Origin: Pelotomaculum sp. UBA3103
GTDB lineage: Bacteria; Bacillota; Desulfotomaculia; Desulfotomaculales; Pelotomaculaceae
Direction: 5' to 3'
Assembly (NCBI GenBank): GCA_002365855.1
Contig: DFAP01000001.1
Span: 1,966-35,957, forward strand
DNA length: 33,992 nt
Part shown: positions 20,420 through 33,878 of the stretch, piece after piece
Position numbering within the stretch: position 1 is the stretch's first letter
Layout of the letters: each line of letters begins with the position of its first letter
The notes under the pieces: model-generated
What the model saw: only the letters and a program-made list of their open reading frames with translations
What the model was told of the DNA's origin: nothing
Database searches by the model: none
Position numbers and translations under genes: made by a program

Positions 20420-20737
20420 CTATACGCAGCCGGTAGGCTTTGGCAGGCCGGCCAATTTGCAGGCGCCCTTACCCGGGCCTGTTGGGAAGAGCTCATAAAT
20501 ATATTTCAGGGTGAATCCGGTTTCTTTGCAGAGATTCCTGATCATCGGGGCAATCTGAAAAAGCTCAAAATATTCCCGCAGGTAATTGATCACTTTCCAG
20601 TGGTCACCGGTGAGTTCGGCAATGCCTTCAGCGGCGGCAAAGGCCCTGGCTAAATCTTCACTCCATTCGTCCGGCTCAATGATAAATCCATCATCATCAA
20701 GCTCAATTTCCTTTCCGTCAATAATGATGCATGGCAT
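20420..20737 (-). CDS. dsrC: DsrC/TusE-family sulfur carrier protein
   Basis: This 105-residue protein ends CKLAGLPKPTGCV. Cys104 is penultimate and Cys93 lies eleven residues before it, the pair that defines true DsrC, the trisulfide carrier of dissimilatory sulfite reductase. TusE proteins keep only the last. Other family motifs are DDDGFIIEPDEWSEDLARAFA, LTGDHWKVINYLREYF and QIAPMIRNLCKETG. The ATG at 20737 follows GGAGGTG. It has its own promoter and terminator and no sulfite reductase genes beside it, so it is a stand-alone unit. It implies sulfite reduction in the organism or its ancestry. Confidence 0.95.
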   Translation of the reverse strand: MPCIIIDGKEIELDDDGFIIEPDEWSEDLARAFAAAEGIAELTGDHWKVINYLREYFELFQIAPMIRNLCKETGFTLKYIYELFPTGPGKGACKLAGLPKPTGCV

Positions 20738-20835
20738 TTAAAAAAGCACCTCCAAAATAACTTCCAAAGTAAAATTGGTCTTATTGTGAGCCATAAAGAC
20801 ACTTTATAAAGCGAATAAGATTCTTTACATGTTAA

Positions 20836-20864
20836 AAGATATCACGGAGCGGATTATTCGTCAA
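20836..20864 (-). promoter_or_regulatory. Sigma-A promoter of dsrC
   Basis: TTGACG (20864-20859), a 17-base spacer and TATCTT (20841-20836) on the minus strand, about 100 bases ahead of dsrC. The leader between contains a small stem (GTCTT/AAGAC). Confidence 0.75.
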
Positions 20865-20950
20865 TGCATGCTATTTTATATTTTTGCCTCGAGAGGGACA
20901 ATTACCTCAGGATAAAGTTACTCCGCCTTCACCCGCTCATAACCGGGCGC

Positions 20951-21238
20951 ACATAAAGAGAGAAGGCTAAAAGCCTTCTCTCAAAAAGCGACCATCCCTA
21001 CAGCAAGCCATTCCCGAAGTTCAACCTGTTCAAACAATGTCTCACAACGAATTTAACAAGATAGGTTACGCTCTATTGAACTTGCAAACATCCAGTTACT
21101 ACCAACCAACCAGAATTATGGAAATCCCCAATACTCAAAAAACACAACCCTTGGACTGGATCCCTACTTGCAATAAACCTGAAACACATTCAGTAGCTTC
21201 CTGCAAATTAACCCTAAGTCTCTGTAAGGATGGTGCTT
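20951..21238 (-). ncRNA. Candidate structured non-coding RNA, family not recognised
   Basis: This gene-free stretch has all parts of an RNA gene on the minus strand: a promoter at 21245-21273, a folded body and a strong terminator. The two ends of the body close on each other: ACCATCCTTACAG (21234-21222) with CTGTAGGGATGGT (21003-20991), 13 pairs including one G-T. Inside are three arms. They are CTGAA/TTCAG (21179-21193), ATCCAGT/ACTGGAT with flanking TTGCAA/TTGCAA (21082-21173), and AAGTTCAA/TTGAACTT (21083-21017). The terminator is GAGAGAAGGC-TTTTA-GCCTTCTCTC (20982-20958) plus TTTATGT. The total is about 288 bases. It lacks tmRNA, SRP and RNase P landmarks. A 6S-like role is possible, but the fold looks branched rather than rod-like. 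Confidence 0.55.
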
Positions 21239-21244
21239 AACTAA

Positions 21245-21273
21245 ATACTAACACAACAGCCCCGAAAAGGCAA
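21245..21273 (-). promoter_or_regulatory. Promoter of the candidate RNA
   Basis: TTGCCT (21273-21268), a 17-base spacer and TAGTAT (21250-21245) on the minus strand. The predicted start falls a few bases before the closing stem of the RNA. Confidence 0.65.
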
Positions 21274-21380
21274 CTGTTTTTTGCTAAACACTTCCCGTTT
21301 CAGAGCTTCATGGCCATTAATATAATAACAATATCGGTTGTTCAAAAAAGGGGAAAGCATTACCTCGAAGTTGATTGACT

Positions 21381-21863
21381 CTACTTGTGATACGGCTCGC
21401 CCCTGGCGATCTTAAACCAGCGAAAAACCTGTTCCAGCAGAATAACCCGCACCAGTTGGTGGGGGAAGGTCATTCTTGAAAAAGAAAGCCTGAAGTCGGA
21501 ACGCTCCAGTACCCTTTGGGAGAGGCCGAGTGACCCGCCAATGGCAAATGTAATGTCGCTTTTACCCTCCAGGGCCAAATTATCCAGCAGCCCGGCCATC
21601 TCTTCCGAAGAGCGCATTACTCCCTTTTGGTCCAATGCAACCAGGCAAGTGCCCGGCTGCAGGCGTTTGAGAAGACGATCCCCTTCTTTTTCCACGACTT
21701 TTTCAAGCATGGCCGGGGTTGATTTATCTGAAAATCCCTCGTCGTTTACTTCAACTACCTTGACTCTGGCATAAGGCGGCAGCCTTTTCAGGTACTCGGC
21801 CGCGCCAGCGGCCCAAAAACCCTCTTTCAGGCGCCCCACAGCCAGGATGGTGATATGAAGCAT
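21381..21863 (-). CDS. rlmH: 23S rRNA (pseudouridine1915-N3)-methyltransferase RlmH
   Basis: RlmH is a SPOUT-fold methyltransferase that methylates pseudouridine 1915 in helix 69 of 23S rRNA with SAM. At 160 aa it has normal length. Motifs are MLHITILAVGRLKE, the SAM-binding FAIGGSLGLSQRVLERSD, LSFSRMTFPHQLVRVILLEQVFRW and the conserved C-terminal GEPYHK. The ATG at 21863 follows GGGGGAT. It lies 38 bases after murA, beyond a terminator hairpin. Confidence 0.97.
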   Translation of the reverse strand: MLHITILAVGRLKEGFWAAGAAEYLKRLPPYARVKVVEVNDEGFSDKSTPAMLEKVVEKEGDRLLKRLQPGTCLVALDQKGVMRSSEEMAGLLDNLALEGKSDITFAIGGSLGLSQRVLERSDFRLSFSRMTFPHQLVRVILLEQVFRWFKIARGEPYHK

Positions 21864-33624: not shown

Positions 33625-33699
33625 TGGAGCGGGTGACGAGGATCGAACTCGCAACCCTCAGCTTGGGAAGCTGATGCTCTACCGTTGAGCTACACCCGC
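33625..33699 (-). tRNA. tRNA-Gly (anticodon CCC)
   Basis: A complete 75-base cloverleaf on the minus strand: acceptor GCGGGTG/CACCCGC, D arm GCTC/GAGC, anticodon stem TCAGC/GCTGA with loop TTCCCAA, T arm GCGAG/CTCGT with TTCGATC, discriminator T and encoded CCA. Confidence 0.97.
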
Positions 33700-33710
33700 C
33701 CGGCTCCAAT

Positions 33711-33739
33711 ATTATAACTTTTCTAATCTTAAAAATCAA
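33711..33739 (-). promoter_or_regulatory. Promoter of tRNA-Gly
   Basis: TTGATT (33739-33734), a 17-base spacer and TATAAT (33716-33711) on the minus strand, a dozen bases before the tRNA. A stem CGGGCA/TGCCCG at 33771-33793 may end the upstream tRNA-Glu transcript. Confidence 0.75.
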
Positions 33740-33802
33740 GTTTTGGGCTTTTCCGGATTTTTAATGAAAGCGGGCAACCAAAAGGACTGCCCGGTACAGA
33801 CA

Positions 33803-33878
33803 TGGTGACCCCACCGGGATTCGAACCCGGGTTACCGCCGTGAAAGGGCGGTGTCTTAGGCCGCTTGACCATGGGGCC
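33803..33878 (-). tRNA. tRNA-Glu (anticodon TTC)
   Basis: A complete 76-base cloverleaf on the minus strand: acceptor GGCCCCA/TGGGGTC, anticodon stem CCGCC/GGCGG with loop CTTTCAC, T arm CCGGG/CCCGG with TTCGAAT, and encoded CCA. Confidence 0.97.

Follow-up and report, generated by a model that had tools for sequence, protein, structure and literature searches.

The spacer between rlmH and dsrC in Pelotomaculum sp. UBA3103 almost certainly encodes a conserved, genuine, stand-alone structured RNA, the gene architecture, its conservation and two helices (P1 and P2) being established by sequence comparison with relatives. The RNA appears to represent a new family, with the novelty lying at the level of the family only, and its working principle may be a familiar one. 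Our overall reading, which we hold to be probable, is of a new family of stand-alone structured RNAs that probably act in trans and that fold by strand exchange, the 5′ strand of the RNA being able to pair with two different partners. A preliminary description of the 33,992-nucleotide stretch of DNA analyzed here (the window) had recognized a complete stand-alone RNA gene of no assigned family, and this reading is upheld by an in-register promoter, compensatory changes in P1 and P2, the terminator, changing neighbors and the absence of any Rfam match. That account mentioned no second partner for the 5′ strand and did not extend to how widely the RNA is distributed.

Architecture of the RNA gene

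The putative gene occupies the minus strand of the rlmH-dsrC spacer, running ∼280 bases from its predicted start to a terminator that ends near 20955 (Table 1). The promoter, closing stem, internal arms and terminator all lie on this one strand, as originally proposed, and the predicted start coincides with the outermost base of P1 on its 5′ side, in agreement with the proposal that the stem begins close to the transcript start; the gene is presumably transcribed. In keeping with the description of the spacer as free of protein genes, no conserved protein was seen among open reading frames of at least 50 aa. An antisense frame of 67 aa was considered and rejected as a conserved protein, with only weak and scattered matches in relatives (E 0.001 or worse, at differing positions and strands). 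The minus strand from 20955 to 21240 folds at −100.4 kcal/mol (z = −5.8), and none of 200 shuffled versions folds as low. Across the family, the RNA measures 211–396 bases from its first base to the end of the closing stem (51 members measured), to which the terminator is extra.

Table 1. Features of the RNA locus and its neighbors, in window coordinates
Feature	Position	Strand	Remarks
rlmH, upstream neighbor	21381..21863	−	PF02590
Promoter	21245..21273	−	−35 TTGCCT, 21273–21268; 17-base spacer; extended −10 TGT-TAGTAT, 21253–21245; call based on 53/54 non-redundant relatives
Predicted transcript start	21238	−	First A of AAGCACC; placed by its 6-base spacing from the −10 hexamer
P1, 5′ strand AAGCACCATCCTTACAG	21222..21238	−	CCATCC invariant in all 51 sequences counted
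P2, interrupted hairpin	21154..21220	−	GACT:AGTC, then pairs of the GGTT:GACC type, a stem of the TTGCAA type and an apical hairpin
Conserved motif GGGTTGTGTTTTTTG (family GGRUNGUGUUUU)	21136..21150	−	Second partner of the 5′ strand (P1′)
3′ domain	21004..21135	−	Lineage-specific; U-rich and C-poor across the family
P1, 3′ strand CTGTAGGGATGGTCGCTT	20986..21003	−	Bulged C20990
Intrinsic terminator GAGAGAAGGC-TTTT-AGCCTTCTCTC and T tail	20955..20982	−	11-pair stem, 20982–20958
dsrC, downstream neighbor	20420..20737	−	PF04358

Taken alone, the promoter in the window is unremarkable, and a consensus scan omits TTGCCT-17-TAGTAT and lists other sites. The call is made solid by the relatives, because 53 of 54 non-redundant sequences share TTG, 17 bases (18 in L007) and TGNTANNNT at a near-fixed distance upstream of the first stem base, compared with a mean of 0.05 of 54 when the same pattern is sought in shuffled upstream sequence. 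The distance from TGNTANNNT to the stem is exactly 6 bases in 51 relatives, 5 in one and 9 in one, with L013 falling outside the range of 5–9, and the promoter named in the preliminary description is thus backed at the site given there. At the other end of the RNA, 50 of 51 sequences have a hairpin with 6 or more pairs that begins no farther than 45 bases past the closing strand, and the remaining sequence is cut by a contig end. The terminator in the window does lie directly behind the closing strand, as had been claimed, although its stem has 11 pairs rather than 10. The sequence of this stem (GAGAAGG...CCUUCUC) is kept in many relatives, Pelosinus included, a degree of conservation beyond what an ordinary terminator needs.

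Other features of the window were seen alongside the RNA gene. A promoter-like TTGACG-17-TATCTT with a TG lies at 20864–20836, between the RNA and dsrC, and may drive dsrC. The DsrC protein ends in CKLAGLPKPTGCV and has the pair of C-terminal cysteines expected of DsrC, and genes for tRNA-Gly(CCC) and tRNA-Glu(TTC) are found at 33625–33878.

The closing stem and the P2 hairpin

The closing stem had been placed at 21234–21222 with 21003–20991 (13 pairs), and it is confirmed and found to be longer than claimed, with AAGC:GCTT past the single bulged C20990 extending it to 17 pairs. Conservation of P1 was counted for its 12 inner pairs, leaving the outer five uncounted, in 51 of the 54 relatives; L081 and L097 are truncated at a contig end and L004 is a variant missed by the pattern, and insertions of 2 bases in L089 and 1 base in L017 were removed beforehand. 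Of 612 cells, 600 are paired. At one position, 31 sequences have C-G and the other 20 have U-A, so that all 51 are paired; shuffling gives a mean of 38.9, and none of 2000 shuffles reaches 51. At a second variable position, 46 sequences have U-G, U-A or C-G and five are mismatched, a count equaled or exceeded in 76 of 2000 shuffles, and the innermost pair is intact in 46 of 51 (36 of 2000). The remaining nine positions are nearly constant and hence carry little information. Consensus folding of 18 whole elements arrives at P1 unguided, and predicted full-length folds contain P1, with at least 10 of the first 17 bases engaged, in 48 of 51 sequences, the exceptions being L057, L101 and L127.

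Relatives thus show compensatory changes in P1, and the same holds for P2, whereas the arms of the 3′ domain do not recur across lineages. The internal arms of the preliminary description are present in the predicted fold, but judged by eye only P2 is found from lineage to lineage and the 3′ arms differ. P2 appears by eye as an interrupted hairpin in the predicted folds of 54 sequences, and its sequence is highly variable. On an alignment of 18 sequences, 91.2% of its cells are paired and 11 cells are changed on both sides, neither value being reached in any of 500 shuffles and the latter comparing with 0–8 in slid versions; the counts of pairs with such two-sided changes and of further pair types are unexceptional, being equaled or exceeded in 216 and 118 of 500 shuffles, respectively. 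On the 54-sequence alignment, 76.4% of cells are paired against 20–46% when slid, a value explained by the alignment placing one large group out of register in P2. Several slid versions there exceed P2 in cells changed on both sides, and this measure does not favor P2 on that alignment. Neither the 54-sequence alignment nor a similar one of 66 sequences yielded a structure on consensus folding.

The 3′ domain has a U content of 36% and a C content of 13%, compared with 28% and 23% in the surrounding loci, and by eye it is less well conserved than the 5′ domain. Two sequence blocks stand out within it. The first, CAAGGAGGATT followed by GTA..CCT, is found in L007, L012, L014 and L018, with variants in L003, L013, L015 and L017; it is specific to a lineage (Pelotomaculum relatives and others) and resembles a ribosome binding site, and no start codon was seen close behind it. 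The other, TGTTTGAAACAAGTTTTTTCA ... TTGTTTGAGATTGTCGTGT, is common to L067, L071, L079, L085 and L099, which are copies from Anaerospora, Sporomusa and a Pelosinus MAG.

Distribution and comparison with known RNAs

A DNA search found the RNA in 18 of 41 close genomes, including that of the window. When the pattern of the 5′ domain was sought in a contig set with one genome per species (84,980 species), 52 stretches were returned; L083, L090 and L093 were dropped as chance matches, and the closing 3′ strand is present in 47 of the other 49, two being cut by a contig end. By record title, the carriers include Pelotomaculum, Pelosinus, Sporomusa, Anaerospora, Propionispora, Lucifera and Dethiobacter. 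The non-redundant relatives used above derive from 68 distinct profile hits, reduced to 66 by removal of an antisense artefact (L056) and of L133, the 5′ domain of which is too short for the motif search, and then to 54 by thinning at 95% identity. Covariance model R2 detects the RNA in 33 of 113 genomes of the window's class, as does model R1, both models covering the 5′ domain only; with R2, the class of Pelosinus fermentans JBW45 (G113) has 49 positive genomes among 200, and the phylum of a Dethiobacter MAG (G116) has 5 among 299. Because the covariance-model searches used strict filters, the negative genomes may include missed members.

The number of copies differs between these groups. 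A single match is present in 31 of the 33 positive genomes of the window's class (G070 has two, and G009 a weak second), and 14 of the 49 positive genomes in the class of P. fermentans JBW45 carry 2–4 matches. Diverged copies, in tandem or otherwise multiple, occur in several Sporomusa genomes and in L103 (4812–5526), where two of them are spaced by 430 bases; as many as four matches were counted in a single genome (G114). The members in L133 (from G050) and G048 have a far shorter 5′ domain, of 68–73 bases, and L133 retains a promoter-like sequence and the closing strand. A phage or plasmid origin is unsupported by searches of plasmids, phages and viral contigs: the plasmids searched gave no match and the phage records only a match of 28 bases at the terminator stem in two Aeromonas phages, although distant members could escape these searches, and five viral pattern hits were judged by eye to be due to chance because they lack the promoter and the closing strand. 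Among 200 genomes of the class of P. fermentans JBW45 (apparently one draw), Spo0A is found in 44 of the 49 that have the RNA and in 12 of the 151 without a match. We do not claim a link to sporulation, because these counts are confounded by kinship and because 80 of 113 genomes of the window's class are without a match.

The order rlmH-RNA-dsrC recurs in several genomes in part of the window's family, which is what speaks for a cis-acting leader or trailer of dsrC or rlmH. In other lineages, however, the neighbors are unrelated. Pelotomaculum relatives have genes for an Fe-hydrogenase and a SpoIIE domain protein to one side of the RNA and for an M48 peptidase to the other; elsewhere it lies beside dnaX together with SRP RNA and a tRNA, in Pelosinus beside feoB and a gene for a polysaccharide deacetylase, and in a Sporomusa beside one for a chemotaxis receptor. 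The contexts vary by lineage, with no consistent downstream gene of the kind expected for a riboswitch or cis leader, and the RNA in the window has its own terminator before dsrC, making the cis-acting role very improbable. We judge it more improbable still that the RNA is a divergent 6S RNA or tmRNA, for which its size and closing stem would be suitable. Like the RNA here, 6S RNA is stand-alone with its ends closed by a stem, and 6S RNA can change fold; the present RNA differs in being predicted to branch rather than to form one rod and in having no RF00013 match. The preliminary description had kept 6S as an option, which is now very unlikely because a canonical, full-length 6S lies elsewhere in the same genome (G000:C45:2997-3174; 95.1 bits, over the gathering cut-off) and 6S is found in 39 of 41 genomes searched, although a second 6S elsewhere is not decisive alone because some genomes carry two or three. 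ARAGORN and RF00023 find no tmRNA here, as had been noted, and the tmRNA of this genome lies at G000:C63:2017-2377.

Comparison with Rfam 15 at the gathering score gave no match in the window, and so none in the region 20940–21280 that contains the RNA; a relaxed scan of 20738–21400 gave three weak matches only (snoR127, mir-335 and MIR5638; best E = 1). In line with the missing landmarks of SRP and RNase P RNAs noted before, the Rfam scan of the window gave no RF01854 match and no RNase P match, and a separate SRP RNA gene lies near the RNA in L070 and L077. Rfam 15 was also run on 18 relative loci, 16 of them with a member (L097 is cut by a contig end; L083 and L090 are chance matches), and the RNA matches no family there. 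OLE and raiA are conserved structured RNAs, found partly in anaerobic Firmicutes, that were without a known function when found, and the RNA described here differs in having no Rfam match to either. With trans-acting base-pairing sRNAs it shares its own promoter, a terminator with a U tail, several diverged copies in some genomes and the presence of an hfq gene, but it is longer and more structured, and a long stem is predicted to sequester its conserved 5′ strand. Hfq is a possible partner, but an uninformative one because its gene is near-universal (107 of 113 genomes of the window's class). A CsrA-binding sponge, suggested by GGA motifs, was rejected for want of an association: CsrA is found in 20 of the 33 genomes of the window's class that have the RNA and in 42 of the 80 without a match, and genus g4 has the RNA in 4 of 4 genomes and CsrA in 0 of 4.

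The RNA was not recognized in the literature searched, including passages of PMC11109978, PMC8632094 and PMC6429828; supplements and most subscription papers lie outside this search, and an earlier mention is possible. One published large structured RNA candidate resembles it in being large, structured and without an assigned function, but in the passages of its source is placed only in Thioalkalivibrio, beside smtA. Some of the motifs of PMC6429828 are also in Negativicutes, according to the passages of that paper, the motif list of which is in its supplement.

A predicted second partner for the 5′ strand

The motif GGRUNGUGUUUU, on the 3′ side of P2, is complementary to the same 5′ strand that is used by P1, and RNAalifold arrives at this second pairing (P1′) unprompted when given the 5′ domain alone of 18 relatives. 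P1′ is paired in 97.2% of cells across 54 sequences, which are related rather than independent, compared with 37–64% when slid by 1–3 columns; a within-column shuffle gives the same 97.2% and hence no support. No compensatory change is visible in P1′ because the 5′ strand is nearly invariant. Within the motif, 31 of the 54 sequences have G at R and 23 have A, either of which can pair with U; at N, opposite C7, the base is A (44 sequences), U (9) or C (1) but in no case G. When folds of the 5′ fragment are predicted, 54 of 54 sequences have 7 or more of their first 11 bases paired with the motif region, and when this region is shuffled P1′ still forms through composition in a mean of 39% of cases. 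The P1′ pairing is thus supported as a predicted helix by two things only, conserved complementarity and folding. For the window RNA, the full fold has an energy of −100.0 kcal/mol and the fold with P1′ forced −85.3 kcal/mol, so that the forced fold is weaker by 14.7 kcal/mol. Given that the fragment folds take P1′ and the full folds take the stronger P1, P1′ could form first and P1 replace it, and on this modeling we lean slightly toward such a strand exchange.

We infer from these comparisons an exchange in the cell, action in trans and a role for the motif, which could be combined as follows. A promoter of the sigma-A type would start the RNA at the base of the closing stem. With the first ∼110 bases made, the 5′ strand AAGCACCAUCC would pair with GGRUNGUGUUUU and close a hairpin around P2 (P1′); once the 3′ end is made, the stronger P1 would capture the 5′ strand and release the motif, and the intrinsic terminator would end the RNA just behind the stem. 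The mature RNA would most likely work in trans, with its U-rich motif open to contact by messenger RNAs or an RNA-binding protein. That it does so as a regulator rather than as a scaffold we consider an even call.

The scaffold reading takes the RNA for an abundant housekeeping molecule that, like 6S, SRP or OLE RNA, holds a protein or large machine, with the 5′ domain as the site of binding and the choice between P1 and P1′ merely an aid to folding. The extended −10 promoter, the start of the closing stem at the predicted +1, the single match in nearly all positive genomes of the window's class (31 of 33) and the better conservation of the 5′ domain (by eye) would all suit it. On the other hand, most genomes in each of the three groups are without a match (80 of 113, 151 of 200 and 294 of 299), so such a function is not universal, and the 2–4 matches in 14 of 49 positive genomes are more usual for regulators; as a specific account we think it rather unlikely. 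Less likely again is a switch by early termination, in which the P1′ hairpin and the U run behind it form an attenuator or pause that gives an RNA of ∼110 bases, a signal bound at P2 picking the short or the long form. In the motif, GUG leads into U in 54 of 54 sequences and into UUUUUU in 42 of them, as would suit such a site, but the run is shorter or broken in the other 12 (for example, GUGUAUUUU), the base of the stem is weak and partly uses the U run itself, no downstream gene depends on a switch, and the sequence of P2 is strongly variable.

Returning to exchange between P1′ and P1 followed by action in trans, the RNA may prove to be an ordinary trans-acting regulator. The family spans at least two classes, and its promoter is unusually constant. 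Named, apparently cultured carriers (Pelosinus fermentans, Sporomusa, Anaerospora hongkongensis and Propionispora) put deletion and transcript experiments within reach, and the two-partner 5′ strand offers a sharp, testable model of folding during transcription. More tentatively, and as an idea that we rate below an even chance, the 5′ strand may be near-invariant because it serves two partners in turn, the motif as an early helper and then the final closing stem, so that the exchange would be a functional switch timing the availability of GGRUNGUGUUUU in trans in a family of RNAs from anaerobic, largely spore-forming Firmicutes.
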